From contig NZ_VIAQ01000006.1 of assembly GCF_006546655.1 (NCBI RefSeq), positions 248,001 through 312,000 on the forward strand: a stretch of 64,000 nt of DNA. The letters are read 5' to 3'. Position numbers and translations under genes: made by a program. The notes beneath the pieces were generated by a model, which was not told where the DNA came from, made no database searches, and worked only from the letters and a program-made list of their open reading frames with translations. Each line of letters opens with the position of its first letter. Position 1 is the stretch's first letter. The stretch is from Methanolobus vulcani. Its GTDB lineage: Archaea > Halobacteriota > Methanosarcinia > Methanosarcinales > Methanosarcinaceae. Shown here one piece after another: positions 1 through 19,434 of the stretch.

Positions 1-2
1 GC

Positions 3-698
3 CGTGAAGAAATAAAAACAAGTCTGAATGTAACCTCCACAGCCCTTATTCCCCAGATAAAGAAATTAAAGGAACATGGTCTTGTCATACAGAACGGAGA
101 CTATTACATACTGACAAACATGGGAAAAGTACTGGTGGCAAACATGCTGCCTCTTTTGAATGCTGTTGAGGTCTTTGAGGAGAACAGCCGCTACTGGAGA
201 AACAGAGATCTTAGTGGCATACCGGAATCTATCCTGAGAAGACTTGGAGAATTAGGTAACTGCGTTATTATTGAGCCTGATCTTAATTACCTGTTCGAGT
301 TCCCTAAAGAGTTCACCGAGAACATACACAAAGCCAGCTATGTTATGGCCTTTAACGCTTATTTCCATCCTGAATACCCGGCTCTTTACTCAAGCCTTGC
401 CGAAAAAGGAATTCCCGTATCTCTTGTTACAACTAACTCTGTCCATGAAAGAATGGAGAATGATTACAATGAAGAGATGATGAAATTCACCGGCTATGAT
501 AATACAGATTTTTTCGTATCAGATGAAATAACCGGTCTTGCAACACTGGTTTCCACAGACAGGTTCCTTTTCCTCTGTTTCTTCAATAAACAGGGACAAT
601 ATGACCATACAATCCTTATGAGCTTTGACAGCAATGCGCTCCAATGGAGCAAAGAACTGTTCTCTCATTTTAAAGATAAAGCTCAGAATATTTCTTAA
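3..698 (+). CDS. Msr-type winged-helix regulator (C-terminal part; 5' end outside window)
   Basis: The reading frame is open from base 3, so the gene begins left of the window; the first ATG at 120 is internal. The visible part starts in the recognition-helix region of a winged helix-turn-helix and continues into the effector domain of the DUF1724/Msr family. It aligns along its length with the two complete copies at 14429 and 15257 (shared LNVT..PQIK, GNxxxxNMLP, IEPDxNxxFE and HP patterns). Msr proteins in Methanosarcina control methyltransferase genes for methanol, methylamines and methylsulfides; which promoter this one binds is unknown. It converges with the permease at 843. Confidence 0.85.
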   Translation, partial: REEIKTSLNVTSTALIPQIKKLKEHGLVIQNGDYYILTNMGKVLVANMLPLLNAVEVFEENSRYWRNRDLSGIPESILRRLGELGNCVIIEPDLNYLFEFPKEFTENIHKASYVMAFNAYFHPEYPALYSSLAEKGIPVSLVTTNSVHERMENDYNEEMMKFTGYDNTDFFVSDEITGLATLVSTDRFLFLCFFNKQGQYDHTILMSFDSNALQWSKELFSHFKDKAQNIS

Positions 699-714
699 AG
701 ATATCCAAAAAAAG

Positions 715-756
715 AATCCGATAGCCTTTTACTTGTCAGGAGTAGACTACCGGATT
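715..756. terminator. Inverted repeat between convergent genes
   Basis: AATCCG at 715-720 pairs with CGGATT at 751-756, extended by TAG/CTA with one bulge on each side. It lies between two convergent stop codons (698 and 843), so it may end transcripts from either side. There is no long T run on either strand, so the call is modest. Confidence 0.4.
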
Positions 757-842
757 TAACTGTTTCTGCATAATTGGAGGTTATGCGGTAATAAAAATAA
801 AATGTTGCAGCAAGTGTTTTTAGCACTTACTGCGGATGCATG

Positions 843-2327
843 TCAGGCCGCAGGTGTTTCGACTCTTTTAGCCACATGGTTTTCATGCTGTGAATAATAC
901 CACATTGGTATGTACAGAGCCAGAACAACAATCCCGACACCGGTGGAGAACCAGCTGCCTTCAATACTGTTGAGGTAAATTATACCGATCAGACATAGGG
1001 GAATGTTGAAAAACCCGAACATAAGTGCAACATTCTTCCAGCCGGTTGGTGCCTTGAAAGGCCTTTCAAGACCTGCAAGATGCGGATCTGCCTTTGCCTT
1101 TACGTATGCAAAGAGACTGATACCGTTTGCACAGACATAACCAATAGCAGATGCTGCAAGGATGGCTGTTGGAGTACCCATTGAAATGAGTGCCAGGTTG
1201 AAGATACCGATAACTACCATTGCAAGTATTGGAGTTCCATGAGAATTCACTTTACCGAATACTCTGGGAAGGTTTCCTTCAATTGCCATGGAGTGCATTG
1301 CTCTTGCAGAACCAAGGTATGCAGTCTGTATGATAAGGACCATTGCGGCAATGAGCATTACAATAGCAACTGTTGAACCCATGTCACCAAGAGCTGCCTG
1401 TGCTACAGGAAGCATAGGATCGATAGGTGCGTTGGCAATACCATCAACTCCCAGTACTCCGGTAACTGTTGTCTGTACAATCACAAACGCCAGAAGACAG
1501 ATAGCACCACATGTGAAAAGTGCCTTTGGTACATCTTTACCCGGATTCTTGTATTCAGGACCATAGATAGCTGCTGTTTCCCAGGCGCATGCACTCCACT
1601 GTGCCATTGCAAAAATACCCAGCAGGATAAGAATACTGTTCAAATTCCATACCCAGTCAGTTGGCAACCAGGTGCTGGTGATGTTTGCCAGTACGAAGTC
1701 ACCTGTTGCATAAGGTGCCAGTGCAATTATGATCAAAGGTATAAATGCGAGTGCTGCAAGAATATAACCTACCAGTGCTCCACTTGAAACACCACGATAA
1801 TTAATAAGTATAAGACCTCCGAATATAACGATTCCTGCAGCCAGTGAAAGCTGATATTCACTGAAAGTAGCTGCCAGTCCCGGGAAAAGGCTGTGCAGGT
1901 AAAAACCTACAAGGATAGCAAAGATAGCAAGTACCGGATTCCATGCAAACCAGTAACTCCATGCACTGAATCCACCTACAAGTTTACTCTTGTCATATTT
2001 ACCCGTATAATTGCGGGTTTTGAAAACGTTCTGTGCGAATCCGGGTAGTCCGGATGCTTTCGGGAAAGTTGTTGCAAGTTCACCATATGCCAGATTCTGC
2101 ATAAATCCCTGGAATACGGAAAGACCCCAGACAATAATAGCAGCAGACCATAGCCAGCCTGCAAAGTATCCAATTGATGGCAGGATCAACAGAGGTACAC
2201 CTACAGCAATTGCGAGACCCTGTTTCCAGTCGATCGAACGTTCAAGTCCACTTTCTTCACCGGTTTCACAAACCACTTTAGAGCACTGTTCTGCATGATG
2301 CCAGTCTATTCCTTCTTCTTTTTCCAT
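843..2327 (-). CDS. APC-superfamily permease, probable methylamine transporter (DMA operon)
   Basis: 494 residues with about 12 hydrophobic segments, as expected of the amino acid-polyamine-organocation superfamily. The cytoplasmic N terminus has a Cys pair followed by the motif LERSIDWKQGLAI, shared with the second permease at 5105, so the two are close paralogs. It is the third gene after mtbC and mtbB on the same strand, 122 bp behind mtbB, which argues for uptake of dimethylamine (or another methylamine). Substrate and coupling ion cannot be read from the sequence. It ends with TGA. The name mtbP or mttP would be a guess. Confidence 0.85.
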   Translation of the reverse strand: MEKEEGIDWHHAEQCSKVVCETGEESGLERSIDWKQGLAIAVGVPLLILPSIGYFAGWLWSAAIIVWGLSVFQGFMQNLAYGELATTFPKASGLPGFAQNVFKTRNYTGKYDKSKLVGGFSAWSYWFAWNPVLAIFAILVGFYLHSLFPGLAATFSEYQLSLAAGIVIFGGLILINYRGVSSGALVGYILAALAFIPLIIIALAPYATGDFVLANITSTWLPTDWVWNLNSILILLGIFAMAQWSACAWETAAIYGPEYKNPGKDVPKALFTCGAICLLAFVIVQTTVTGVLGVDGIANAPIDPMLPVAQAALGDMGSTVAIVMLIAAMVLIIQTAYLGSARAMHSMAIEGNLPRVFGKVNSHGTPILAMVVIGIFNLALISMGTPTAILAASAIGYVCANGISLFAYVKAKADPHLAGLERPFKAPTGWKNVALMFGFFNIPLCLIGIIYLNSIEGSWFSTGVGIVVLALYIPMWYYSQHENHVAKRVETPAA

Positions 2328-2360
2328 TTAATAATTCCCCCTTCTTCCAAAAATGGTTAA

Positions 2361-2393
2361 CACCTGTATTTACTGAAAAAGCAATTACAGGTG
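2361..2393 (-). other. Intercistronic stem-loop mtbB/permease
   Basis: CACCTGTA at 2361-2368 pairs with TACAGGTG at 2386-2393 around a 17-nt loop, in the gap between the mtbB stop and the permease start. It may stabilise the mtbCB message or reduce read-through into the permease. No U run follows it. Confidence 0.45.
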
Positions 2394-2449
2394 CCTTCTA
2401 TATTTTCTGTATCTGAACAATTGCCAGATTTTTGAAAGAAAAAGATTCT

Positions 2450-3853
2450 TTACTTCAACTGTCCCCTGAATTTCTCACAGCAGTTAATGTTGAGGTCAAG
2501 AAGCTTCTCTATATTCATCTTAGCTGCAATTCCCTTTGGAGCGCCTGCTACTGAAGTGATGACCCCTATACCAAGTTCTTCTCTCAGTTCCCTCATCACA
2601 TACTCATCACTGAGGTCATCTGTGGTTACGTCAAGTTTCTTTGCAACGTAATCCTTTGCATCTCCAATTCTCATGCTCTTTGCAAGCTGCATTCTTGCAA
2701 CAAGGTCACCTGCTGCTCTGATTCCGCTCATTCCGGAAGTCATTATGTGGGAGATCGGCATACCCATCGGGTCGCCGACCCCTATCTATATACCATCGAC
2801 ACCGGCAATTTCAACCATCGCCTTGCTGGCTCTTGATACAGCATCAATAGTCGGAGTCTCAAACATCGGGATACTACCGACACCCATTCCCATGTTTACA
2901 TGACATGGTATTGGTGAAGCCTTAACAGCTGCCTTGATGAATGTAACAGCTCTTCCAAGGTTCCATGCTGAGGATTTGCTTGTGTTTGTGTTAACAACAG
3001 GTCCGAAAACGTTTGCTCCTGCCTTTGCAGCAAGTGGAGCCTGCTGGTGTGGCCACAGACCTGCAAGTACTGTGCCATCATATTCCATTTCACCGTGCAG
3101 ACCAAGCAGAAGTTCTCCTGCCATTCCTGCTTCAATATAGATATCAGGATACTGCTTCCTCAATGCTTCAATTGCGTGGAGTGATGCATACATGTCACCA
3201 TCGCCTGCTGCACCGATAGTATCAAAGTTAACACCGTCAGCACCTGAAGCCATAAGCCTCTGCATGATCCAGACTGTGTCCCTTGTAAGGTGTTCAGCTG
3301 CATGCTGCATGGATTCCTGAGCTTCCTGAATTTTGAAAGCCTTCATAAGATCACCCGGATTAGGGAAGGGACCATCGGGTGTGTAGTAAAGACCCATGTT
3401 AGGCATTGCACCGTAGAGAAGAGGAACGACCATGTTGGCCTGGCAGACTTCCATTGTCTGCATCTCCTGTGCAATTACTGGTTTTACTGGTTTGTAACTG
3501 TAGTCGATATGACCGAGTTCCATTGTGTCAGCACCGAATGCACGCTCGTGCATCATTGCACCAACAAGCCTGCTGGATGGAATACCTACACCACTGTTAC
3601 CCTGGTCACCATCAATTCTGATTGTTCCGATATCGTGGGTTACAGGTACTTCTTTACCCTGTTCGACACCAACCATTCTTGAAGGCATAGTGACAATCTC
3701 AACAAGCTTGTCGATCTCATCTTCACTGAGATCAGGAATTTCACCAAGGTCGGCAGCATCTGCCATACCTTCTTTCAGGTCAGCGATAATCTGCTCCTTT
3801 GTCATGAAGATGCGCTTTCCATCTCCCATTCTCAATTTATATTCAGTTGCCAT
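2450..3853 (-). CDS. mtbB: Dimethylamine:corrinoid methyltransferase MtbB (pyrrolysine protein)
   Basis: Transfers a methyl group from dimethylamine to the Co(I) corrinoid of MtbC. The gene is read through an in-frame UAG at 2786-2788, codon 356, giving 467 residues; family MtbB proteins have this length and Pyl356. Conserved blocks occur on both sides of the UAG and the frame does not shift, so this is recoding and not a broken gene. The downstream part begins O-I-G-V-G-D-P-M-G. It lies 13 bp after mtbC in the same operon. The stop is TAA. Annotation pipelines that ignore Pyl would split it into a 355-residue and a 105-residue piece. Confidence 0.97.
2769..2788 (-). other. mtbB Pyl codon and PYLIS-like hairpin
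   Basis: UAG (2786-2788, minus strand) is followed four bases later by GGGTC-GGC-GACCC (2769-2781), a perfect 5-bp stem with a 3-nt loop. An alternative stem ACCC-GAT-GGGT overlaps its 3' side. Structures of this kind downstream of Pyl codons have been called PYLIS; in Methanosarcina they are not strictly required for decoding. Confidence 0.8.
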
Positions 3854-3866
3854 GATAATGCCTCCC

Positions 3867-4496
3867 TTAAAGCAGAAGCTCCTTTGCTTTTACAACAGCT
3901 TCACTTGCATTCTCTGCATAGCAGTCTGCACCGATCTTTTCAGCCCATGCCTGGGTTGCAGGAGCACCACCGACCATGACCTTTACTTTGTCCCGAAGAC
4001 CCTGCTCCTTAAGCATTTCGATGACTTCTTTCTGACCAGGCAATGTGGTCGTCATAAGAGCAGACATACCCACCATGTTTGCATTGGTTTCATTGATCTT
4101 GTCAACGAAGTCCTGAAGTGGGACATCTCTGCCAATGTCATGGACCTCAAAACCTGCAGACTGGAGCATTGTGGACACGATGGATTTACCGATGTCATGC
4201 ACATCTCCTTCAACGGTACCATTAACAATGACACCGAGTTTCTTACTTACTGCATCCTTTGGCATGTCTGCCTCAAGGAGTGCAACACCTTCTTCCATTG
4301 CGCCTGCTGCCATCATTACGTGAGGAAGGAATAACTTACCTCTTTCAAAAAGCACACCTACTTCGTTCATTCCTGCTGCAAGACCCTTCTCTATGATCTC
4401 AGGTGCAGGGATACCTTCACCCTTTGCTTTCTCAACGGCTGCTGTTACAACATCTTTTTTACATGTGACAACAGCGTCGGAGAGTTCTTTGAACAT
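3867..4496 (-). CDS. mtbC: Dimethylamine corrinoid protein MtbC
   Basis: 209 residues: an N-terminal helical cap domain (about 1-85) followed by a B12-binding Rossmann domain. The cobalt ligand motif D-x-H-x-x-G is seen as [11 protein letters not shown] near residue 100, with the GG motif (MVGGAP) near 175. It accepts the methyl group from MtbB and donates it to MtbA. It is the first gene of the mtbC-mtbB-permease unit; an SD-like GGAGGTATT precedes the ATG. It is clearly related to MtmC at 13289. Its neighbour MtbB, not MtmB, assigns the substrate. Confidence 0.95.
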
Positions 4497-4576
4497 TTCT
4501 TCGTTGCTAATAATAATACCTCCATACTTTTTGCCTTCAGTTCATGATAGAGAAATTCAGACTTGAAGAGCAATCA

Positions 4577-4587
4577 GCTATAAATGC
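4577..4587 (-). promoter_or_regulatory. Candidate TATA box for mtbC
   Basis: On the minus strand GCATTTATAGC lies about 85-90 bp upstream of the mtbC ATG; the expected start about 25 bp downstream leaves a leader of roughly 60 nt. A second AT-rich candidate (ATATATAC) lies near 4601, so the choice is tentative. Confidence 0.4.
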
Positions 4588-4682
4588 ATAAGAAGAAAAT
4601 GTATATATCATAAACTCAGACAAATATGTCTACTGCCCTTGAATTTATAAAGAAGGAGTTAATATTTACTTATGATTGAATC

Positions 4683-4701
4683 ATTACAATGGCGTTGTAA
4701 T
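4683..4701. promoter_or_regulatory. Palindrome upstream of mtbC (operator candidate, copy A)
   Basis: ATTACAA-TGGCG-TTGTAAT, a perfect 7-bp inverted repeat followed by CTTA. It sits about 190 bp upstream of mtbC. A near copy with the same flank lies at 7007-7024, upstream of the second permease unit. Shared position and sequence suggest a binding site for a common regulator, perhaps one of the Msr proteins (inference). Confidence 0.5.
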
Positions 4702-4799
4702 CTTAAGGGAAAACAGATATTGATATTAAAATGAATCTCGCTATAGTAGCATAATAGTATTTTCAGAATTCATATATAGCATCGAAGAAGTACTGAGTC

Positions 4800-4964
4800 C
4801 TATAAAATATTTGGATTACTAAAGAGATAAGCACATAGACCACCAATAGCCAGAGTTTCAAGCACTGGAATCCCTGACGGGAGAGGATTGGTTGCTGAAT
4901 AGATTAGAAAACTTGCCAGAATGGCAATAGCAAAATTAGCAATAATGAGATCTTCAATTTCCAT
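4800..4964 (-). CDS. 54-residue two-helix membrane protein, copy 1
   Basis: Starts MEIEDLIIAN and ends SNPNIL, then TAG. Two hydrophobic stretches (about residues 6-24 and 34-50) are joined by a Pro/Gly turn (NPLPSGIP). GGTG sits six bases before the ATG. A second copy at 7231 differs at only four residues (I7V, F11L, L20F, L43I), all conservative, and several other base changes are silent, which is the pattern of a translated gene. It follows the permease at 5105 by 140 bp and keeps a similar 70-bp upstream region in both copies. Function unknown; a permease partner or membrane-associated regulator is possible. After the TAG the copies diverge, so it is a true stop. Confidence 0.8.
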   Translation of the reverse strand: MEIEDLIIANFAIAILASFLIYSATNPLPSGIPVLETLAIGGLCAYLFSNPNIL

Positions 4965-5058
4965 TTTTACACCAAGTGAAAACAGGCAATATCACCGGTT
5001 TTTTAATTCTTATATTTTTTGGTTTTAGAGTATTAATATCCAAATATCAAAGAGGAAT

Positions 5059-5078
5059 CCTGATACCGTAGTATCAGG
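5059..5078 (-). terminator. Perfect hairpin after the second permease
   Basis: CCTGATAC-CGTA-GTATCAGG, an 8-bp stem with a 4-nt loop, 27 bp after the permease stop on the minus strand. No U run follows, so it may be a processing or 3'-stability element. Confidence 0.5.
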
Positions 5079-5104
5079 AACCTGTGTTACTCATAGTATT
5101 TTAC

Positions 5105-6646
5105 TTATTCTTCTACCGGAACAAGTTCGGGTTCAAATATACCATGCTCTCTGTGTACTGCACTAGCAGCAGGCATTCTGTTCCTGTTCTCACGCTGTGA
5201 GTATATCCAGAGTGGGATGAAGAGACAGAGCATGAAAAACCCGACACCTGTTGTCGCCCATCCAAGTTCAAGACTGTTGAGGTAGATGATACCGATCAGG
5301 AAGAACGGGGTGTTCAGAATGGTGGTTGCCAGAGCAACACTCTTCCATCCTCTTGGAGCCTTGAAAGGTCTTTCCAGCCTGGACAGTTCAGGGTCGTTCC
5401 TGACCTTTACATAGGTGTAAAGACTGATACCATTGGCACAGATGTAACCGATTGCAGAGGCTGCAAGGATAGCTGTTGGTGTTCCAAGAAGAATTAAACA
5501 CATGTTGAAACCTGCATCAGCGATCATTGCGTTCATTGGATGTCCGTGTTTATTCAACTTACTCAGAACTGATGGCAGATTACCTTCAACTGACATTGAA
5601 TATATGGAACGTGCAGATGAAAGGAAAGCCGTCTGGATGATCAGAAGCATTGCACCAATCAACATTACAATTGAAATTGAAGCACCAATAGGACCAAGTG
5701 CCATGTTTGCCAGTGGAAGCATGGGTGAGATAGGTTCTGCAAGAACTCCGTCAACTCCAAGAGCTCCAATTACAGATGTCTGTACAAGTACGTAAAGAAC
5801 AAGGCATATTGCTCCACAAACAAGCAGTGCTTTTGGTATATCTGAATTTGGCTTCTTGTATTCAGGACCATAGATAGCAGCTGTTTCCCATGCAGCAGCA
5901 CTCCATTCAGCCATTGCAAGAAGTCCGAGAAGGATCAGTATGTGTTCCCAGTCCCAGCTCCAGTCAGTCGGGAACCATGAACTTGTGATATTTGACATCT
6001 GGAAATCGCCTGTGAAGAATGGTGCAATGGTGATGACCAGAAGAGGTATCAGGGAAATAACAGCTAAGATCATTCCAGCGGCTGCTCCGTTCTTAAGTCC
6101 CTTTGAATTAATGATTGCAAGGGAACCGAAGATGAAAACTCCTACTACCAATGCCATAAGTGTTGAGTTGATACCTGCTAGAGCCGGGACCATTCCCTGA
6201 ACGTAGCTGGATATCAGTATTGCGTAAATTGCAAGAACAGGACTCCATCCAAACCAGTAACTCCAGGCACTGAAACCACCTATGAACTTACCGAACTTGA
6301 ACTTTCCTCTGTTATTCTTGTCTTTATCTGAACCAAAGACTGTCTGTGTATAACCAGGAAGACCTGATGCCTTGGGAAAGACTGTTGCCAGTTCTCCGAA
6401 CGCGAAGTTCTGTAAAAAACCAAGAAGAACCGTTGCTCCCCATATTACTATTGCAAAGGACCAGACATAGCTTGTAAGGTATCCGATGGAAGGTAGGATA
6501 AGCAGAGGAACACCCAGTGCTATTGCAAGACCCTGTTTCCAGTCAATGGATCTCTCAAGTTCCTGAGGATCACATATATTTTTAGCGCATTGAGCACCAT
6601 GTTCCCAATCGATACCTGACTGAGACGTCTCAGCTTTATTGCTCAT
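5105..6646 (-). CDS. APC-superfamily permease, paralog of the DMA-operon permease
   Basis: 513 residues, about 12 membrane segments, closely similar throughout to the permease at 843, including the N-terminal GIDW..H..QC and LERSIDWKQGLAI motifs. The start chosen is the ATG at 6646: GAGGTGG precedes it by six bases and the paralog begins at the same point; a longer reading to 6757 would add 37 residues with no homology and no SD. The ATG overlaps (ATGA) the TGA of an upstream short reading frame that contains a UAG. Probable methylamine transporter; substrate not determinable. Confidence 0.87.
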   Translation of the reverse strand: MSNKAETSQSGIDWEHGAQCAKNICDPQELERSIDWKQGLAIALGVPLLILPSIGYLTSYVWSFAIVIWGATVLLGFLQNFAFGELATVFPKASGLPGYTQTVFGSDKDKNNRGKFKFGKFIGGFSAWSYWFGWSPVLAIYAILISSYVQGMVPALAGINSTLMALVVGVFIFGSLAIINSKGLKNGAAAGMILAVISLIPLLVITIAPFFTGDFQMSNITSSWFPTDWSWDWEHILILLGLLAMAEWSAAAWETAAIYGPEYKKPNSDIPKALLVCGAICLVLYVLVQTSVIGALGVDGVLAEPISPMLPLANMALGPIGASISIVMLIGAMLLIIQTAFLSSARSIYSMSVEGNLPSVLSKLNKHGHPMNAMIADAGFNMCLILLGTPTAILAASAIGYICANGISLYTYVKVRNDPELSRLERPFKAPRGWKSVALATTILNTPFFLIGIIYLNSLELGWATTGVGFFMLCLFIPLWIYSQRENRNRMPAASAVHREHGIFEPELVPVEE

Positions 6647-6792
6647 GCACCCACCTCTGGACAATTCAGGTCTGTTCTCCAGGAAAGAGGCGTACCCATC
6701 GGGTAGCCGGTTCCTGCCTATATTCCAGCCATGGGACAATGCTCGTGGACAATACAATCCACAGATTCGTTCAAAATGATGATTTTGTTCAT
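6643..6792 (-). CDS. Leader reading frame with in-frame UAG, coupled to permease (candidate Pyl peptide)
   Basis: AAGGTGG lies four bases before an ATG at 6792. The frame runs 24 codons (Cys13, His16, His18, Cys19 clustered), meets UAG at 6718-6720 (codon 25), then 24 more codons and a TGA at 6643-6645 overlapping the permease ATG as ATGA. Residues 23-37 read GI-O-AGTGYPMGTPLS; the Pyl site of MtbB reads [15 protein letters not shown]. From the UAG on, 29 of 39 bases match mtbB. A stem TACCC-GAT-GGGTA (6693-6705) follows the UAG. Known: UAG can be Pyl in this organism. Inferred: read-through would carry ribosomes to the permease start, making permease synthesis depend on Pyl-tRNA. Alternatives: a 24-residue leader ending at UAG, or a relic of mtbB. 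Confidence 0.65.
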
Positions 6793-6859
6793 TCTACCAC
6801 CTTAGTGATTAAAAGTAACCTACCTGAACGATAAATATATATGCGATTTCAGGCACGAT

Positions 6860-6921
6860 ACTTATATTTTACGGATATACTATTCCTAGCACTTATATTT
6901 AAAAATAACGGACATAGTATT
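6860..6921. repeat. Tandem direct repeat in the leader/permease promoter region
   Basis: Two imperfect copies at 6860-6884 and 6891-6921 share ACTTATATTT, then ACGGA(T/C)ATA(C/G)TATT, the second with a 6-bp insertion. On the minus strand each contains a TATA-like AAATATAAGT, 70-130 bp upstream of the leader ATG. They may be duplicated promoters or a two-site operator. Confidence 0.5.
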
Positions 6922-7006
6922 CCGCCTTATACGTCCTTATGAGAAAAATAGAGATATTGATGTTGTTTTCAATATTAATATTGGAATATTCGATTGTCAT
7001 TGTATT

Positions 7007-7024
7007 ATTACAATGGATTGTAAT
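7007..7024. promoter_or_regulatory. Palindrome upstream of leader/permease (operator candidate, copy B)
   Basis: ATTACAA-TGGA-TTGTAAT followed by CTTA, the same inverted repeat and flank as at 4683, with a spacer one base shorter. It lies about 215 bp upstream of the leader ATG. The rest of the 6925-7230 interval shows no gene. Confidence 0.5.
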
Positions 7025-7230
7025 CTTAGAGGAGCATCAAAATAGACTATAGAAATTAATGGATCTTGTCCTACTTACATAGTCTTCCTTTTCCATAGAA
7101 AACAAAAAAAGATGCGGAATCAAAATTTTCAAAATTAAACAGAATGTGAACAAAATATCTGATCAACCCAAAATAAATAAGGATCAAGGACTCTATTATT
7201 AGATTTTTGAATCAAGAAAGAGCTAAGTTT

Positions 7231-7395
7231 CTATAAAATATTTGGATTACTAAAGAGATAAGCACATATACCACCAATCGCCAGAGTTTCAAGCACTGGG
7301 ATCCCTGACGGGAGAGGATTGGTCGCTGAATAGATAAAAAAACTTGCCAGAATGGCAATAGCAAGATTAGCAATAACAAGATCTTCAATTTCCAT
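7231..7395 (-). CDS. 54-residue two-helix membrane protein, copy 2
   Basis: Same length, start context (GGTG before ATG) and TAG stop as the copy at 4800; 50 of 54 residues are identical. It lies upstream of the leader-permease unit, so the permease is bracketed by the two copies in the same orientation. Upstream similarity between the copies reaches to about 7456 and then stops, which marks the edge of the duplicated segment. Hydrophobic segments at about 6-24 and 34-50; no catalytic motif. Function unknown. Confidence 0.8.
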   Translation of the reverse strand: MEIEDLVIANLAIAILASFFIYSATNPLPSGIPVLETLAIGGICAYLFSNPNIL

Positions 7396-7554
7396 TTTTA
7401 CACCAAGTGAAAGTGAACAAAAAGCCGGTTTTTTAGGTTTTCTGTTTTTTAGTTCTAGAGTGACATACCCGAATATTATTCAATGAAAGAGTTGTTGCCA
7501 TCAAGCCCCCCATTACCGCAATAACATAATGAGGCTCTCCCTACAAATAAATAA

Positions 7555-7571
7555 GGATGACCTTATCATCC
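7555..7571 (-). terminator. Weak terminator after the 39-residue gene
   Basis: GGATGA (7555-7560) pairs with TCATCC (7566-7571); on the minus strand it is followed by TTATTTATTTG. It lies 46 bp after the stop at 7617. Confidence 0.4.
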
Positions 7572-7616
7572 CTACAACTCCAAATAGAATATTAAATCAT
7601 TACGAAAGAATAACTC

Positions 7617-7736
7617 TTAATTTTCACAGGATGTATGTGCTTCAGCTGGAGCTTTTGCATCTCTCAACCTGACTCCATGCAATACAGGTGGTAATGGTGA
7701 TGCAGTAAATACTCTATCTTCTGATTTTTCAGACAT
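7617..7736 (-). CDS. 39-residue hydrophilic protein of unknown function
   Basis: Starts MSEKSEDRVF and ends AHTSCEN. AAAGGAG stands about eight bases before the ATG at 7736, and a clear TATA box lies upstream at 7809-7823, so it looks like a real single-gene transcript. The frame could open further to 7889 but the added residues lie upstream of the likely transcription start. No membrane segment, one Cys near the C terminus, Pro-rich middle. It lies between mtbA and the 54-residue protein genes. I do not recognise the family. Confidence 0.55.
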   Translation of the reverse strand: MSEKSEDRVFTASPLPPVLHGVRLRDAKAPAEAHTSCEN

Positions 7737-7808
7737 AACAGTTTTCTCCTTTTTGTGTTGATTGGTTTCTACTCGACTATGTGGAAGCCGGCATCTGCAA
7801 ACTGGCCT

Positions 7809-7823
7809 GATACTATTTATATC
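7809..7823 (-). promoter_or_regulatory. TATA box for the 39-residue gene
   Basis: Minus strand GATATAAATAGTATC, a near-ideal archaeal TATA element, about 75 bp before the ATG at 7736. Expected start near 7785 gives a leader of about 50 nt rich in GC pairs. The 7890-8070 interval upstream holds no gene I can support. Confidence 0.6.
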
Positions 7824-8070
7824 TTTTGTACAATGATTAATAGATTGGTAAAAATCCAGTATAAAACAAATAATTTTGAATTTATCCAAGAAAAAAATCG
7901 TAAATAGATCATAAACAGAATATCAGCTATTTCAAAGCGAAAAGAAATGCAGAGGACCAAGATCCACAGAATAGCTTTAAAAATAACATCAGAAGAATTA
8001 ATATCCAGAATTACAATATCATCACCAGAAAATTACCGGATTCCGATCCTAGGCTGGTTGCTGCTCTAAA

Positions 8071-8136
8071 CTTATAAAAAAATAGTTCTCCGGGTGAAGG
8101 TGATGATTACTCGTACGAAGGATTTAACCCGGAGAA
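8071..8136 (-). terminator. mtbA terminator
   Basis: On the minus strand a 10-bp stem (TTCTCCGGGT at 8127-8136 with ACCCGGAGAA at 8086-8095) is followed by ACTATTTTTTTATAAG. It begins nine bases after the mtbA stop codon. Confidence 0.75.
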
Positions 8137-8144
8137 ACTTTTAA

Positions 8145-9164
8145 TCAGTACTTGTGGTTCTTTGCCATCTCTACCATTGCCTGGAGGTTCTCTGTGGGAG
8201 TCTTGCTGACAATACCACAGCCCGGTGCAAGCAGACCCACGCCTGCATCGAGGACCTTCTGTGACTGCTCCTTTATTGCTTCAGGAGCCTGGTTCCAGAG
8301 CATGTTCACAGGGTCAAGATTTCCGACAATTACAGCTTTTTCAACACTGCCAACAGCGGTTGCTACATCAACATTCTGGTCTACACTGATACCGTCTACT
8401 CCCGATGATTCCATAAGTTTGAGACCCTGGGTTGTGTCACCACAGATGTGCAATACTACAGGCACATTGACCTCGTGCATTGCATCAACTATTCTTTTGT
8501 GGAAAGGTACAACGAACTTTTCATAGAATTCGGCACCAATGAGCTGGGCACTTGCTGTAGGGTCAATGATGACCATCGTGTCAGCACCGCTTTCAACCAT
8601 CTTCTCTGCGTATGCAACACAGAAATCGGTTGTGAATTCCATGAGTGCAAGTCCGAATGCTTCATCAGTGAAGATTGCCATGAACCAGTCGTCGCCATTA
8701 ATGTGCTGTGCAAGGGAGAAAGGACCGATCATACTTCCCATGACAGGAAGTTCATCGCCATACTTGTCTGCCAGTATTTTAATAGCTTCACAGACGACTC
8801 CGATCCTACCGTGATCGAGGCTGTAACCTTTAAGCTTCCCGATGTCTTCAACACTGCTTACAACATGCCCTACAACGGATGGTTGCTGCTCTTTTGTACC
8901 ATCCTTTATTTCACAGCCAAAGAACTCGGCTTCTGCTGTAATATCGAAAGGCACACGTACGGCTTCAAAGCCAACTATTGTGTGACCAGCTTCTGCAAGT
9001 TTAGCCATTATTTCTGCGTCGCTGTTAGCCTCAGGCCAGAAGGCACTGCAAGCTTCCATTTGTTCAACTGTTCCTGTCTGGGTGACAGAGACTGCTGGCA
9101 TCCTGTCTACAGGCTGGCCTGTTAAGGCACGTGCTAATCTTTCTTTAGGGGTATATTCTGTCAT
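8145..9164 (-). CDS. mtbA: Methylcobamide:coenzyme M methyltransferase MtbA
   Basis: 339 residues of the uroporphyrinogen decarboxylase-like MtaA/MtbA/CmuA family. It moves the methyl group from methylated MtbC or MtmC to coenzyme M. The zinc site is seen as H-x-C (VLHICGDT, about residue 240) and a later Cys (APGCGI, about residue 315), the family's usual His-X-Cys-Xn-Cys arrangement. The methylamine setting and the family's usual partners favour MtbA over methanol-specific MtaA. It lies 29 bp downstream of the desulfoferrodoxin-like gene, so the two are probably cotranscribed, and has a strong terminator. Confidence 0.93.
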
Positions 9165-9193
9165 AGATAAATCTCCTGTAAATTAAAATGAGA

Positions 9194-9676
9194 TCACAAC
9201 TGTGGGCCCCAGGTGCATTTCTTCCCGGCTTTGGTAGTAGAAGAAATAATCTCAATACCTTTCGAATCTTCCCACAATCCATGAACATTACAACTTTCAA
9301 CTGCTCTGAGATTGACAATGGCTGACCTGGTACCGCATATACCACATACACCAAAACCATGAATCGTACAGTTCCTGATCTCCCTTGCAGAGATCATCTC
9401 TTCAGTGCCTACTGCGGTAAAGGTCGCTTCAGCTTTTCCTTCAGATGCCTGCAGTTCCTTTCTTCCCACAAGATCACCGTTCAGGTATAGTTCGATCCAT
9501 TGTATGTAGTGATCATCTTCCATAACATGAGGAATATCTCCTACAGTTACCTTTACATCAAAAGGTTCCCCGGCTATCACCTCTGAAGGAGCCTCAATGA
9601 CAGGAACATGTTTTTTTTCCGTTTCGGTAAGGTTATCATGATCCTTTGCTCTTTGAATATTGATATCTGAACTCAT
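9194..9676 (-). CDS. Desulfoferrodoxin/superoxide reductase-like protein
   Basis: 160 residues. Ligands typical of the superoxide reductase Fe(His)4Cys centre are visible: KHVPVIE, IPH, HYIQWIEL and the final C-N-V-H-G-L-W. Between them is an unusual insert with CTIHGFGVCGICG, adding an extra Cys/His cluster not present in neelaredoxin; it could bind a second metal. The role is probably oxygen/superoxide defence or redox protection of corrinoid proteins (inference from its position next to mtbA). A terminator separates it from the upstream permease operon; a TATA-like TTTAAATTTATG lies near 9715. Confidence 0.8.
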   Translation of the reverse strand: MSSDINIQRAKDHDNLTETEKKHVPVIEAPSEVIAGEPFDVKVTVGDIPHVMEDDHYIQWIELYLNGDLVGRKELQASEGKAEATFTAVGTEEMISAREIRNCTIHGFGVCGICGTRSAIVNLRAVESCNVHGLWEDSKGIEIISSTTKAGKKCTWGPQL

Positions 9677-9736
9677 AATTTCACCTTATACTATCCATTA
9701 ATTACTAAATTAAACATAAATTTAAACACAAAATTC

Positions 9737-9766
9737 AAAAAGAAATGTCAGTTATGCTGACATTTC
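9737..9766 (-). terminator. Terminator of the monomethylamine permease operon
   Basis: Perfect 10-bp stem GAAATGTCAG (9742-9751) / CTGACATTTC (9757-9766), 5-nt loop, followed on the minus strand by CTTTTTG. It separates the small membrane protein genes from the superoxide reductase-mtbA unit. Confidence 0.7.
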
Positions 9767-9767
9767 T

Positions 9768-10013
9768 TCAGTATTTATAATGGCTTACAGAATGGTACAA
9801 CATAATCGCAAAAAATGCGATAATGACTCCCAGTAAACTGAAAAAGCCCACCGGATCCCATACGAACTGAATTGCCCCGGTCTCTGACCAGCCGACAAGT
9901 ACTGAACCCTGTATCTGTGTTGGTACAACCAGACAGATGAAAGCAAGTACAAAAATGAAAATTATGTCAAATGCCTCCATCATCCAGTTTTTCTTTTCAA
10001 CATCTTCACTCAT
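9768..10013 (-). CDS. Small membrane protein downstream of the MMA permease (second of two)
   Basis: 81 residues from the ATG at 10013, which follows GAGGTG by six bases; earlier in-frame starts overlap the preceding gene and lack an SD. Two hydrophobic segments (about 13-35 and 54-74), a charged N terminus and a His/Tyr-rich tail. It follows the 87-residue membrane protein by 10 bp. Family not recognised; a permease accessory subunit is a reasonable guess from context only. Confidence 0.75.
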   Translation of the reverse strand: MSEDVEKKNWMMEAFDIIFIFVLAFICLVVPTQIQGSVLVGWSETGAIQFVWDPVGFFSLLGVIIAFFAIMLYHSVSHYKY

Positions 10014-10023
10014 ATTATTCACC

Positions 10024-10287
10024 TCAATCATAGTACTTGAAATCAAACATATGCTGTTTAATTGAGTGCCGGACCTGCAGGTAACCTATGGTTTCAATAC
10101 CAACTACCAATCCGAAGAACAGGATGTATATTCCCCTGATTGCAGGTGCAACAGCTGAACCAGCTTCAGATAGTATTGTAAAGACCACATAACCTTCCAC
10201 GACAATCAGCAGTGCAATCGCACCCAGAATCAGGAAAGTATCCTTTGCAAACGCACTATTGTATTTTGCTTCATTGACTCCATCCAT
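10024..10287 (-). CDS. Small membrane protein downstream of the MMA permease (first of two)
   Basis: 87 residues from the ATG at 10287, preceded by GAGGAG eight bases upstream; a GTG at 10296 overlaps the permease end and is less likely. Two membrane segments (about 18-40 and 50-70) with a Lys/His-rich C terminus. It directly follows the permease stop (10293-10295), so it is translationally close to it. Family not recognised. Confidence 0.75.
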   Translation of the reverse strand: MDGVNEAKYNSAFAKDTFLILGAIALLIVVEGYVVFTILSEAGSAVAPAIRGIYILFFGLVVGIETIGYLQVRHSIKQHMFDFKYYD

Positions 10288-10292
10288 TACTA

Positions 10293-11684
10293 TCACTCCT
10301 CAGTTTTATGGTGACTGGGATTTGGCCATCCCATTTCTCTTCCCCAATCAAATTCTTTCTGATGCTTCTTGTGCTTTTTATGGAAGTAGAAGTACGCTAT
10401 CAGATAGAAAAGCAGAGCGAAAATAAGGTTGTATCTGTAACCCCAGAATAACGTGGACATGATAGTGATAGCTATTGCCATTGCAAAGTAAGATATCCAT
10501 GGCTGAAGTGGGCTTACGAATGGGCGCACCTTGTTAATGTGTGTTGGGAACATTTTTCTGAAACGTATCAAAGAGAATGGTATCAGAACGTAACAAAGCA
10601 AACCGGATACGATAGAGAAAGTAATTACCTGGTCAAGGTAGCCGCTGAATGCAAAGGCTATTGCTATAGGCATGGTGAAAATTACCGCTTTGTAAGGTGA
10701 CTGGTATTTTGGATGCACTGAAGCAAACCAATTAGACACAAAATGATCTCTTGAAAGAGCAAACCATGATCTCGATGAATCACAAACACAGCCGTTTGCA
10801 CTGGAAACACATGTTAGCAAAGTTCCAATTGCCAGAAGCGCAATCAGGACTGGTACTCCGCTTACCTGTGCAGCCTCAAAAAGTGGATACACGGAAACTC
10901 CAAGACCTTCGGCAGGTATGTTGGATGGGAGCAGGTTTGCACATATAAAGAGCGTCATTGCAGCTCCGACCAGCAATGTGATCATTCCTGCCTGTTGTCC
11001 CAGGGGAACTGCCCTTGACGGGCGCTTACATTCCTCTGCACACATTGCTGCTCCTTCAATACCCAGGAAAAACCAGGGACCGAACTGCAAAGCGGCAAAC
11101 AGACCTATCATGCCATTTGGCATTGCACCCTGGAAAAGGTTCTCCGGATGAAGTTCAAAGACGCCGAATGTTCCTGAAAAGAAGAACAATATTATGGCAA
11201 GGAAAGCTATGGCAGTCATGAAGAAGTTAAGTGTGAGTGCAGCCACAACACCCCTGTAGTTAATAAATGTCAAAGTGGCAATTACCAGTAATGTAACAGG
11301 GAAAACCTGCAACTGCGGGAAAAGCTCCTGCGCAATAAAAGCAACAACTATGGCATCTGCAGCCTCCAGGGCTATAAATTCCATATATACCGCAAGCCCA
11401 ACACTGGCTGCTGCACCTGGTCCTACAAAGAGCCTTGCCCAGTCATAAGGTCCGCCTGCCAGTTTAGTAGCGGATCCCAGTTCACTTGCACACAGAGAAA
11501 TCATAACGTACATTGTTCCTGCGACAAGCATTGCCAACAGGGCACCAAGAATTCCTCCTTTTGCAACAGTGAAATTCCACCCCATGAACTCACCAACAAG
11601 AACTATTCCGACTCCCAATGCCCAGACATGGTATGGTCTTAGGGTCTTGACAAGTCCTGTCGTTTCTGTAACTTCATTGGTCAC
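10293..11684 (-). CDS. mtmP: APC-superfamily permease of the monomethylamine operon
   Basis: 463 residues with about 12 membrane segments and the APC signature region GxxMGWNF..A near the start; distinct from the two permeases at 843 and 5105, closer to ethanolamine-permease-like members. The GTG at 11684 is used: GAGGTG lies five bases upstream and no in-frame ATG precedes it. Position right after mtmC-mtmB supports monomethylamine uptake, for which the name mtmP is used in Methanosarcina; the assignment is by context. A 36-residue membrane peptide precedes it and two small membrane proteins follow. Confidence 0.8.
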   Translation of the reverse strand: MTNEVTETTGLVKTLRPYHVWALGVGIVLVGEFMGWNFTVAKGGILGALLAMLVAGTMYVMISLCASELGSATKLAGGPYDWARLFVGPGAAASVGLAVYMEFIALEAADAIVVAFIAQELFPQLQVFPVTLLVIATLTFINYRGVVAALTLNFFMTAIAFLAIILFFFSGTFGVFELHPENLFQGAMPNGMIGLFAALQFGPWFFLGIEGAAMCAEECKRPSRAVPLGQQAGMITLLVGAAMTLFICANLLPSNIPAEGLGVSVYPLFEAAQVSGVPVLIALLAIGTLLTCVSSANGCVCDSSRSWFALSRDHFVSNWFASVHPKYQSPYKAVIFTMPIAIAFAFSGYLDQVITFSIVSGLLCYVLIPFSLIRFRKMFPTHINKVRPFVSPLQPWISYFAMAIAITIMSTLFWGYRYNLIFALLFYLIAYFYFHKKHKKHQKEFDWGREMGWPNPSHHKTEE

Positions 11685-11688
11685 ATGA

Positions 11689-11799
11689 TCACCTCTTCAA
11701 TTTCTTGGATGTTTTACTCGCGTCAAGCAAGACCCACCCAATCAATGCAAAAGCCAGCAAGTATATTATCCCATTAATGATCGTCCAATATCCGTCCAT
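11689..11799 (-). CDS. 36-residue single-span membrane peptide before the MMA permease
   Basis: Starts MDGYWTIING, has one hydrophobic segment (residues 6-25) and a Lys-rich tail (KTSKKLKR). AAAGGAGG, an ideal SD, lies six bases before the ATG at 11799, and its TGA is four bases before the permease GTG, whose SD lies inside its last codons. These features make it a convincing small gene. It could be a permease subunit or assembly factor (inference). Confidence 0.75.
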   Translation of the reverse strand: MDGYWTIINGIIYLLAFALIGWVLLDASKTSKKLKR

Positions 11800-11848
11800 C
11801 ACAAAACCTCCTTTTTATGATTTAACACGGTTTTCATACCCTCCCATA

Positions 11849-11879
11849 GAAAAAAAATACCAGCGAAAAATATCGCTGG
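11849..11879 (-). terminator. Terminator after mtmB
   Basis: CCAGCGA (11860-11866) pairs with TCGCTGG (11873-11879); on the minus strand the stem is followed by TATTTTTTTT. It lies 18 bp after the mtmB stop. The permease genes downstream must rely on read-through or a separate start. Confidence 0.75.
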
Positions 11880-11897
11880 CGTATTATTCCGGAGGGA

Positions 11898-13274
11898 TTA
11901 GAAAGTAAGACCGAACTCCTCTAGCTTCTTACGTGCAGCGTCGTAGACCTTGACGTATTCGTCAGTTGGTGTTACGGTTGCAATGTCGTAACATTCCTGG
12001 AAGGTCTTACCTTCTGGTGCATTTGCATAGTTACCTTCGTAGGAGCTTACAAGAAGGTCGAGGACCTTGTTGACATCGTCGATGTTCATTCCTGCTGTTG
12101 CTCTTGCAACTTCTCCCATCATCCTTGCTTCCATACCGGTTGTCTTGTCCTGGACAACACCCTTTGCAGCTGCTACACCGGAGAGAATCTCACGGCCGGA
12201 TGCTGTGTCAGTGATAGACTGAGCGGATGCTTCCAAAAGACACATCTCAGTGCAAGGACCTGCACATGGATAGTACTGGTTACCGGAAAGCATGTCAGTG
12301 AATTCAGAAATGGTTGCACATGCCCATCCTGCGATCATGAGGGTTTCCCTGGTGTTGGTTGAGCCCCAGCGGATGTGGACCGGACCGTCAAGGTGCCAGC
12401 TTGCATTGCTCATTACAAATGCATTGATGTGGGTTGCGATATCTACGATAGTGGTTTCTTCTATGCCACCGGCATATCCACCAAAAATAGGCATCTGTTC
12501 ATCCATGATGATGTCACTGTTACCCTGATAGTGTGCCATTACACTGATAGCGTCAAGGTCGATCTTAAGCTCGTTGAGCTGTGATACTTCGTGACTGTCG
12601 CTGCAGATCTGGCCACCGACACAGTCTGAGGAGATATTTCCCTGAGCGGACAGGGAAGTCTCTGGTCCCTATATGCCCATGCCTGGCCTGCCGGCCATTG
12701 CTGCTGCTGTCTTGATGAGTCTGGTTTCGGTCTTGGCTGCAAGAACCTCGTATGGACTCTTTGGAATTGGTGGTTTGCCACGGACTGTCATCATGACACC
12801 ATTAACGATTGTGTCAACTTCCTTCTCAAGAGCATAGCTCATGTGAACTGGCATAAACATGTCTTCGGAAATAGGGGAACCTGTTGGACCACCCTGGACA
12901 ATTGGCTTTCTCTTGTCACCAACGCTTCTTTTCCTGACGTTTACGGCATCTCTGCCAGTTCCCAGAACGAATTCTTTCTGGACATTGTTGATTGCGTCCC
13001 AGATCTCGTCCTCGGTGTATTTTACTACACGGCCTGTGTCTGTACAGAAGATACCACAGTCAAGGAGCATCTCGAAACCTGCCTTGAAGAGGTTTTCCAT
13101 CATGTCCTTGTCGGTTGGTACGAACTCACCCTTGAAATCAAGGTTGTATTTCTGTTTGAGTTCCATTGCCTTCATTGGGATTGTCATGAGGTCCCAGTCA
13201 TCCTGGGTCATCTTCTCTCCCTTCTTTGCACGCTCATAGAATTCAAAACAATCTAATGATCTTGAAAATGTCAT
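11898..13274 (-). CDS. mtmB: Monomethylamine:corrinoid methyltransferase MtmB (pyrrolysine protein)
   Basis: Transfers the methyl group of monomethylamine to MtmC. 458 residues when the UAG at 12669-12671 is read as Pyl; it is codon 202, exactly the MtmB position, and the context is GMGI-O-GPETS. Start at 13274: GAGGTG stands seven bases upstream; the frame extends further but into mtmC. It follows mtmC by 14 bp. The N terminus (MTFSRSLDCFEFYERA) and blocks such as GTGRDAVNVRKRSVGDK are typical of the family. Stop TAG or TAA position is at 11898. Pipelines unaware of Pyl would report two fragments. Confidence 0.97.
12669..12671 (-). other. mtmB Pyl codon (UAG, residue 202)
   Basis: In-frame UAG with conserved MtmB sequence on both sides and no frame change. 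Known family position of Pyl202 in the catalytic cleft. Confidence 0.95.
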
Positions 13275-13288
13275 ACTTTTCACCTCGA

Positions 13289-13939
13289 TTACTTCATAAG
13301 ACTGAGTGCAACTCTTGCTGCATCTGCTGCGTTTTCTGCTGTTGCATCTGCTCCGATCTCTGCAATCCATGCATCAGATACTGGTGCTCCGCCGAACATT
13401 ATTTTGACAGAGTCTCTGAGACCTTCTTCTACAAGAGTTCCCACTGTGTCTTTCTGACCCAGCATTGAGGTTGTCATGAGTGCAGAACCTACAAGGAGGA
13501 TTTTGTTACCCTCAAGCTTTTTGACTTCATCTACGATGGTATCATCAGGTACATCAACACCAAGATCAACTATCTTGAAACCATTTGCACCAAGCATAGT
13601 TGAAACTAAACGGTGGCCGATGTCATGGATGTCACCTTCCTGTACAAAAGTGATTGCTGTTCCTACTCCTTCTCCTGTCTTTTCTTCTGCAAGTATAGGA
13701 GTCAGAATTTCCATTGCAGCATTCATAGCCTTTGCAGACATCATAATCTGTGGAAGATAGATCTCTGCTGCTTCAAATTTGTCGCCTACGATCTTCATGC
13801 CTACTGAAAGGCCGCCTTCTATCGCATCAACAGCACTAATACCTGCGTCTACAGCTTCCTGAGTAGCTGTAGCACAGCCATTGATATCCTGATTGACTAT
13901 AGTATCTCTGAGTTTGTCTAATAACTCTTGATTTGACAT
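13289..13939 (-). CDS. mtmC: Monomethylamine corrinoid protein MtmC
   Basis: 216 residues with a helical cap (about 1-90) and a B12-binding domain; the Co ligand motif is GDIHDIGHRLV near residue 105 and MFGGAP lies near 180. It receives the methyl group from MtmB and passes it to MtbA. First gene of the mtmC-mtmB operon, GGAGGTAAAAT upstream of the ATG. About 490 bp separate it from the divergently transcribed Msr genes. Confidence 0.94.
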   Translation of the reverse strand: MSNQELLDKLRDTIVNQDINGCATATQEAVDAGISAVDAIEGGLSVGMKIVGDKFEAAEIYLPQIMMSAKAMNAAMEILTPILAEEKTGEGVGTAITFVQEGDIHDIGHRLVSTMLGANGFKIVDLGVDVPDDTIVDEVKKLEGNKILLVGSALMTTSMLGQKDTVGTLVEEGLRDSVKIMFGGAPVSDAWIAEIGADATAENAADAARVALSLMK

Positions 13940-14070
13940 ATTTTACCTCCAAATTTCCTATTGCAGTTGTTTTTACAGCGTTGCAACTATCTTTACAATC
14001 ATTCTCAAAACAACTGCCTTTTGCGGGCTATCCTTGGGATTGCCACCGCAAATACATCATTTACTTTACA

Positions 14071-14080
14071 GCATATAGAC
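14071..14080 (-). promoter_or_regulatory. Candidate TATA box of mtmCB
   Basis: GTCTATATGC on the minus strand, about 135 bp upstream of the mtmC ATG; the predicted leader is about 100 nt and contains two TTGCAACG/GTAAAGAT-type repeats of unknown meaning. Confidence 0.4.
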
Positions 14081-14208
14081 TAATCCTTGTCTATTTTTCA
14101 TTAATTACAAGATATAGCTCCTTCATTGTTACTTAAGTACAAGAATGGAAATTTTGAATTAGAATTGATTTCTAAAAGAGGGGTTGATTTTTCATGTGAC
14201 TCATGAAT

Positions 14209-14270
14209 TGTAACTACCTTTGTGAATTATCATGGGGTATATGATTTGTAAATACCCTTGTGAATCTTCA
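14209..14270. repeat. Direct repeat between mtmC and the Msr genes
   Basis: Two 24-bp copies at 14209-14232 and 14247-14270, pattern TGTAA(C/A)TACC(T/C)TTGTGAAT followed by TATCA or CTTCA, spaced 38 bp. They lie between the divergent mtmC and Msr promoters, a natural place for operators. Confidence 0.55.
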
Positions 14271-14428
14271 CATAAATTAAATTAATATAGCTTAAACCAA
14301 AACGTTATTAGTAGTGTAGAAAAGTATTTCAGGTGTTGAAAAATTCCTCAGTGGTAAAATAAAAACTTGAAAAACGGCTGATATAACCAGAGATTCTGAT
14401 AGGCTCGTATTTCAGGAAACAGGGAAAG

Positions 14429-15232
14429 ATGGGTATGAAAACGTCACTGGTAAATACTGTATGGTATTCTGAAAAAAGAAAAAACCTTTTGCTGTTATTA
14501 AGTGAGGGAGAGAGAGATCTGGAACAAATTAAAAAATCACTTAATGTGACAACCAGATCAATAATGCCCCAGATAAAAACCCTGAAAAACCAGAATCTTA
14601 TTAAACAGGAACAAGAGAACTTCAGCCTGACTACCATAGGAAACATTATTGTTGATAATATGCTGCCATTTCTTGACACGTCAAGAATCGTCGAGGAAAA
14701 CAAAGATTTCTGGACAAGCAGGGATTTTGATGCAATACCCGCACACCTTTTCAGCCGAATGAGGGATCTTGGACATTATTTCCTTATAGAACCCGATATT
14801 AACCACATGTTTGAACTTCCCAGGGAATTTGTGGATAATATTCCTAAATCAAAAACAATCATGACTTTTGTCTCATACCTTCATCCTTCATTCCTTTCTC
14901 TTTATCTTAAAGCAGCCCTTTCAGGAGCAGATATCGTACTTTTTCTTTCAGAAGCGGCACTGGACAAAATAAGAAAAGAATATCTCGGGCAATTCAACGA
15001 ATTGATCGGCATGAATGGTACATCCATCTTTCTTTGTGAAGAAAACCCCAGGATACCGATGATAACAGTGACTGACTGGTTTTGCTACATCTGCCTTTTC
15101 AATGAAGAAAAGCGGTATGATCACAGGGATATCATTAGTTTTGACGAAAGTTCACTGGAGTGGTGCCATGAACTGTTTGAGTATTACCGGTGTAATTCAA
15201 AAAAGCTCTGTCAGATGACAGATGATGGTTAA
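14429..15232 (+). CDS. Msr-type winged-helix regulator 1
   Basis: 267 residues: N-terminal winged helix-turn-helix (about 15-80, with RKNLLLLLSEG and a TTRSIMPQIKTLK recognition helix) and a C-terminal DUF1724-type effector domain (about 100-255). The family includes the Methanosarcina Msr regulators, which activate or repress corrinoid methyltransferase genes according to methylated substrate. It lies next to mtmCB on the opposite strand and is followed 24 bp later by a paralog. An alternative start is the ATG at 14435. Confidence 0.88.
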   Translation: MGMKTSLVNTVWYSEKRKNLLLLLSEGERDLEQIKKSLNVTTRSIMPQIKTLKNQNLIKQEQENFSLTTIGNIIVDNMLPFLDTSRIVEENKDFWTSRDFDAIPAHLFSRMRDLGHYFLIEPDINHMFELPREFVDNIPKSKTIMTFVSYLHPSFLSLYLKAALSGADIVLFLSEAALDKIRKEYLGQFNELIGMNGTSIFLCEENPRIPMITVTDWFCYICLFNEEKRYDHRDIISFDESSLEWCHELFEYYRCNSKKLCQMTDDG

Positions 15233-15256
15233 CAAATAGTTACGGGGGCAAAGCAT

Positions 15257-16033: not shown

Positions 16034-16090
16034 AATTCAGAACACCAGGGACTGCGTATCCATATGAAAGAGACTGGAAGGTGTATGTGA

Positions 16091-18949: not shown

Positions 18950-18950
18950 A

Positions 18951-19358
18951 ATGGAAGAAATAGAGATTATTCCTAAGATACTTGTTGTTGAAGACGAAAA
19001 TATCGTTGCTTTGGAACTAAAGAAAAGGCTGAAAAAGCTTGGGTATCAGGTTCCAAGTGTTGCAGCAACCGGGATGGAAGCAATTAACAAAGCTAAAGGG
19101 TTCCTTCCGGATCTTGTGATCATGGATATCAGACTAAAAGGAGATATGGATGGAATTCAAACAGCGCAGGAGATTCATGAAAGATTCAATATACCAATAA
19201 TATATCTTACCGCCCATTCGGACGATGAGACCCTTAAAAGGGCAAAGCAGACAGAGCCGTACGGATACATTTTAAAACCCTTTGAAGAAGATGACCTTCG
19301 AACGGCAATTGAAATAGCTTTATATAAGCATAAAATGGAAAATTGCCACAATAAATAA
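18951..19358 (+). CDS. Stand-alone response regulator receiver
   Basis: 135 residues, a single CheY-like domain: acidic pair in VVEDEN, phospho-acceptor Asp in VIMDIRL (about residue 57), Thr in IYLTAHS and Lys in LKPFEE. There is no output domain, so it must act through another protein. It starts two bases after the kinase stop and is its obvious partner. Confidence 0.92.
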   Translation: MEEIEIIPKILVVEDENIVALELKKRLKKLGYQVPSVAATGMEAINKAKGFLPDLVIMDIRLKGDMDGIQTAQEIHERFNIPIIYLTAHSDDETLKRAKQTEPYGYILKPFEEDDLRTAIEIALYKHKMENCHNK

Positions 19359-19434
19359 TTTCTAATTTCGGCTTTTTTTTGAGAAGATTTATACGTTTTC
19401 TTAGAAGTACATTATTTCATCCATAGAATGATAG

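Follow-up and report, generated by a model that had tools for sequence, protein, structure and literature searches.

A duplicated gene for a small two-helix membrane protein in a Methanolobus methylamine island and its co-occurrence with an amine permease

The window analysed here is a 64,000-nucleotide stretch of the Methanolobus vulcani genome, and the region of interest within it is a methylamine and pyrrolysine island. The island contains mtmB with a PYLIS_1 element, mtbA, mtbC, mtbB with a PYLIS_2 element and three APC-family permeases, together with a gene that we take to be mtmC, presumably pylS, and further genes likewise named from recall; FilR1/Msr-type regulators flank it. Transcription on the minus strand proceeds through mtbA, one copy of a small gene (copy 2, 7395–7231), permB (6646–5105), the other copy (copy 1, 4964–4800), mtbC, mtbB and permA (2327–843). 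The products of mtbA (8145–9164, methylcobamide:CoM methyltransferase) and mtbC (3867–4496, dimethylamine corrinoid protein) matched NF041608 (E = 3.5e-199) and NF041607 (E = 2e-114), both above the cut-off, and the dimethylamine methyltransferase gene mtbB (2450–3853), which has an in-frame amber codon, was recognized from its two ORF halves and from the Rfam element PYLIS_2 (mtbB) at 2689–2788. The permease bracketed by the two copies, permB (5105–6646), is an APC-family (AA_permease_2) amine permease (Pfam PF13520, E = 6e-47). The APC-family permease after mtbB, permA (843–2327), was assigned by PF13520 and by a family search and is a dimethylamine permease by position; its neighbourhood would make it the orthologue by position of Methanohalophilus mahii Mmah_0500, a permease called a dimethylamine transporter in the relevant passage of the genome paper (PMC3017947). 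By eye, none of the listed ORFs from 843 to 9164 was recognized as a transposase.

The small gene is a 54-codon ORF whose product has two predicted membrane helices, and both copies (4800–4964 and 7231–7395) lie on the minus strand. Copy 2 ends 584 bp ahead of permB, and copy 1 starts 140 bp past the permB stop and lies 303 bp before mtbC, so that the two copies do bracket the second permease, as had been predicted. The products are identical at 50 of 54 residues, the changes being I7V, F11L, L20F and L43I, and silent changes bring the total to eight differing codons (nine bases; 4/0/5 by codon position). In a BLASTN search within the window, 4800–5031 aligned with 7231–7461 over 232 bp at 89% identity (E = 4e-82), and the sole longer repeat pair was formed by permA and permB themselves. 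The likeness ends at the stop codon on the 3' side and extends upstream for about 67 bp (4965–5031 for copy 1 and 7396–7461 for copy 2, minus strand), close to the 70 bp originally claimed. The last 17 bases before the ATG are identical, including a GGTG and its spacing, which bears out the claim of equal ribosome-binding-site spacing; in copy 1, GGTGTAAAA precedes the ATG. Just past the permB stop, at 5040–5090, stands a perfect hairpin (CCTGATAC..GTATCAGG) of the transcript-ending type, and co-transcription of permB with copy 1 is therefore doubtful; a resembling sequence also follows permB in genomes G060, G062, G063 and G051. A 40-aa ORF lies between mtbA and copy 2 (7617–7739); G042 has one in the same place (84% over 38 residues), and DNA similarity to the region was also seen in G060 and G062 with an out-of-frame query.

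Comparison with the two-copy genomes G060 and G062 showed that the flanks of the small gene cluster by site and the coding parts by genome. The 100 bp downstream of copy 1 in the window are 74% identical to those of copy 1 in G060 and 40% to those of copy 2 in the window, whereas in the coding part it agrees with the window's copy 2 at 95% and with copy 1 of G060 at 84%; the upstream 75 bp part the sites less clearly (76% versus 70%). Copy 2 of G060 is chimeric, with a 5' half of the site-2 type (79/84 to copy 2 of the window, 68/84 to its own copy 1) and a 3' half of the site-1 type (76/81, versus 66–69/81 to site-2 genes). This pattern dates the duplication to before these three species diverged and, as judged from sequence comparison, gene conversion later homogenized the coding parts. 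The window's copies are alike partly for that reason; dS between copies is 0.14 in the window, 0.45 in G060 and 0.65 in G062.

A motif search also identified a palindrome in two places in the window, against 0.01 matches expected: a 19-bp form 187 bp upstream of mtbC (4683–4701, no strand assigned), which is a separate regulatory feature, and an 18-bp version 361 bp upstream of permB (7007–7024, no strand assigned). In many Methanolobus loci the palindrome, typically ATTACAACGCCGTTGTAAT, stands 160–192 bp upstream of mtbC or mtmC and ∼360–406 bp upstream of permB and/or pylS; it is also present at loci L032, L033, L034, L061–L064, L067, L068, L071 and L075, and it is a likely operator of the methylamine regulon. 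The shared block ATTACAA..TTGTAAT near 4683 and 7007 (centred near 4690 and 7015) was considered as part of the duplicated gene and rejected: it belongs to the mtbC and permB promoter regions, and the palindrome stands upstream of mtbC, mtmC, permB or pylS whether the small gene is present or absent. Upstream of pylS there is an imperfect direct repeat of ∼98 bp (85%; 19435–19531 and 19671–19767) that holds a motif like TCATACCCCATGACAATTCA, and a similar TCATGGGGTATATGA occurs upstream of mtmC near 14225.

Homologues were sought with a single protein and then with profiles, in the family (111 genomes), in the class (237 genomes) and again in the family with a wider profile. Intact homologues are confined to the Methanosarcinaceae and amount to 38 genes in 35 genomes of three genera: 20 genes in 17 of 27 Methanolobus genomes, 11 in 11 of 11 Methanococcoides and seven in seven of eight Methanohalophilus (genera g7 and g10 being taken as the latter two, respectively). 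This count omits weak profile matches (e.g. G218 and G009) and short or interrupted ones; one further copy, in Methanolobus G055, is broken and was scored absent, and in G035 the listed ORF begins at an upstream codon, the small gene being its 3' part. The proteins are 54–59 aa long with two hydrophobic stretches and, in nearly all, a short acidic N-terminal stretch; hydropathy in the nine members examined was 2.1–2.8 for the first stretch and 1.4–2.3 for the second. AlphaFold2, run with a four-sequence alignment, predicts two helices at residues 3–25 and 33–49 (pLDDT 73.7, pTM 0.40); at that confidence, a hairpin of two helices is an unspecific fold. Neither copy matched Pfam or NCBIfam; a Pfam scan of 17 members returned three single-member hits (E = 0.017–0.077), and a PDB sequence search returned one chance-level hit (E = 0.64). 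In listings and abstracts, no paper was found that names the small gene.

Both ORFs are protein-coding and under purifying selection. Homologues at 22–40% identity keep the frame open and the start conserved. dN/dS between homologues, a check proposed with the original prediction, was 0.11–0.34 over the 28 pairs of the eight closest genes, and the substitutions summed over these pairs were strongly biased by codon position (247/113/445); an unbiased pattern, which was to refute that prediction, was thus not seen. Three other groups gave mean dN/dS values of 0.24, 0.18 and 0.13. Taken together, the dN/dS groups drew on 28 of the 31 genes collected from Methanolobus and Methanococcoides, with the divergent genes of G041, G048 and G064 left out. 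The two ORFs belong to a lineage-restricted family of membrane microproteins of methylotrophic Methanosarcinaceae that has no counterpart in Pfam or NCBIfam.

The neighbourhood of the gene differs among genera. In Methanohalophilus, mtbC-mtbB-permA is followed directly by the small gene, 235–259 bp past permA, in 7/7 genomes with permA (two of the seven contigs end upstream of permA and so truncate the genes there), and the eighth genome, G037, has neither permA nor the small gene. The same mtbC-mtbB-permA order in Methanococcoides is followed by a PAS/GAF gene and a response regulator (domains checked with Pfam in one genome, at locus L053) and then by the small gene, 1832–1868 bp downstream of permA in 11/11 genomes, G024 showing the permA tail only, at a contig edge. 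The small gene of Methanolobus adjoins permB in five genomes, with two copies each in G000, G060 and G062 and one each in G063 and G051; the permB-gene unit of G051 lies upstream of alkD (PF08713). It also lies upstream of alkD in G039 and G054 and near it in G059, and the broken copy of G055 is found there as well. A third neighbourhood, in nine Methanolobus genomes, has a TPR-like protein, mostly a hexapeptide-repeat protein too, and in six of the nine a RimK-like gene adjoining the small gene (Pfam was checked in G044 and the others were assigned by sequence similarity, contig edges cutting some views). Homologues adjoining methylamine genes in other genomes, whose absence would have told against the original prediction, are thus found in Methanohalophilus, Methanococcoides and some Methanolobus, and in 12 of the 17 Methanolobus genomes the small gene stands beside the unrelated genes of the alkD or RimK/TPR neighbourhood. 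The genome of the window itself showed no small-gene remnant ahead of alkD, and G051 showed none that was convincing ahead of permB. Two of the loci surveyed are rearranged. In G063 (M. vulcani; L034, 3680–4620) a 19-residue MtbC match is left between the small gene and permA and there is no mtbB, so that the mtbCB pair seems to have been deleted, and in G017 (L055, 2607–4744) an insertion with an IS-like ORF splits mtbB.

A fixed association with the bracketed permease, as originally proposed, did not withstand the comparison. With orthologue thresholds in Methanolobus of at least 88% for permB and at least 75% for permA, permB is present in 10 of 27 genomes; just five of the 10 have the small gene beside permB and the other five lack it altogether, while 12 other Methanolobus genomes carry it elsewhere. 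The presence of the small gene tends, with exceptions, to follow that of permA. An intact small gene occurs in 15 of 17 Methanolobus genomes with permA versus two of 10 without (Fisher p = 0.0007), and in most genomes that have both, the two are far apart. In a tree-aware test a dependent model beat an independent one (Pagel-type LRT 14.1, 4 df, p = 0.007), and among 1483 usable simulations in which the two genes evolved independently, one reached a value as extreme (17 of the 1500 runs were dropped because a state was found at too few tips); the species tree was built from one marker gene (window 26160–27752), the fitted rates were high, and permA was chosen for testing after its synteny had been seen. 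In 9/9 genomes assembled into no more than two contigs, the calls for permA and for the small gene match. As controls, permB showed no association with the small gene in Methanolobus (p = 0.42) and neither did permC (8/11 with versus 9/16 without, p = 0.45) or mtbB (15/23 with versus 2/4 without, p = 0.61), the mtbB control being weak because two of the absences (G047 and G055) fall at contig edges.

The association has exceptions. G041 has an intact small gene and no permA, permB or mtbB hit, G056 has one with neither permA nor permB, G045 has permA without the small gene, and G055 has permA with the broken copy. In other genera of the family, permA relatives with as much as 86% identity are not accompanied by the small gene; the region downstream of them was inspected in a subset (e.g. 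G003). G046 and G061 lie among species with the bracketed arrangement, where the joint absence of the small gene and permA could stem from a single deletion in the interval from permB to the Msr gene. Of the two permeases, permA is the better supported candidate partner. The earlier interpretation is partly supported, in that homologues stand beside methylamine genes and the gene tends to go with an amine permease, permA, and fails in that it is not tied to the bracketed permB; a function in transport itself may be proposed as follows.

We tentatively favour, at somewhat less than an even chance, a membrane microprotein with an accessory or regulatory role in dimethylamine uptake. Its helical hairpin would probably pack against PermA, stabilizing the permease or tuning its activity; since each permease unit in this clade has one copy ahead of it, PermB may perhaps be bound in the same way. 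We infer both the permease contact and the effect on uptake. Doubtful is the further reading that in marine and halophilic methylotrophic methanogens the APC-type methylamine permeases have this protein as their dedicated second subunit or gate, and that in this clade one copy serves PermA and the other PermB. Nearly as likely as the dimethylamine-uptake reading, and to us a serious possibility, is a general membrane microprotein acting in stress, in lipid matters or in some other complex, encoded by a wandering gene that came to lie near permeases by chance and that owes its co-occurrence with permA to common descent or linked deletions. The existence of three distinct settings within Methanolobus (permB, alkD and RimK/TPR) is what such a gene would show, as are the four exceptional genomes G041, G056, G045 and G055, and a single deletion may explain the joint loss in G046 and G061. 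Yet the gene lies downstream of permA in 18/18 genomes of two further genera, the co-occurrence in Methanolobus is found by a tree-aware test with most copies unlinked to permA, and the permB, permC and mtbB controls are negative.

The protein might also serve dimethylamine sensing or regulation rather than act as a transporter subunit, for example as a membrane element working with the adjoining PAS and response-regulator proteins that precede it downstream of permA in Methanococcoides, and the regulators of the FilR1/Msr type flanking the island would suit such a role. Since the PAS/response-regulator pair is absent from the short gap between permA and the small gene in Methanohalophilus and was not seen beside the small gene in Methanolobus, we consider this unlikely. 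In genomes that have one copy and no permB the protein is under purifying selection, so that the ORF itself is being maintained, which makes it very improbable that the copies matter only as DNA, that is, as direct repeats for movement or loss of permB by recombination with an incidental ORF, even though direct repeats 2.4 kb apart flank permB, gene conversion has taken place between the copies, permB with one copy is found at the alkD locus in G051, and G063 has a single copy. Finally, shortness and the lack of a Pfam or NCBIfam match could have pointed to a chance ORF in a duplicated regulatory segment, or to an RNA element. Homologues at 22–40% identity that are open, in frame and begin at the same start, together with dN/dS below 0.35, refute this, and Rfam gave only the two PYLIS elements over window positions 1–20000; we attach practically no weight to it.

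Methylamines are among the main substrates of methanogens in saline sediments, and how they are taken up has received little study. If a microprotein follows the dimethylamine permease across genera, it would offer a concrete handle on the assembly or control of uptake, and its co-occurrence with permA gives a clear, testable prediction. The analysis also corrects an easy inference, in that the bracketed permease is not the consistent companion of the small gene.

Some transporters have small hydrophobic subunits, such as MetS of MetP and KdpF, that are encoded together with them and on which their function or stability depends. The family described here differs in that its gene does not adjoin the transporter in every genome, and many permA relatives come without it. 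Its neighbourhood in two genera, and in part in the window, resembles the dimethylamine operon mtbC-mtbB-permease of M. mahii (Mmah_0498/0499/0500), for which the operon description names no small protein (PMC3017947). A parallel within the same methanogen family is sP36 of Methanosarcina mazei, a 61-aa protein that, as described, is a proposed inhibitor of AmtB1, with which it interacts (PMC10714827). Compared by description, both proteins are archaeal and similar in length, and sP36 modulates a transporter of a nitrogen compound; it differs in shifting between cytoplasm and membrane and in working with GlnK1, whereas the window protein has two predicted membrane helices (PMC10714827). By analogy, the sP36/AmtB1 pair from a related genus is a precedent, since there a small protein acts on a transporter of a nitrogen compound.
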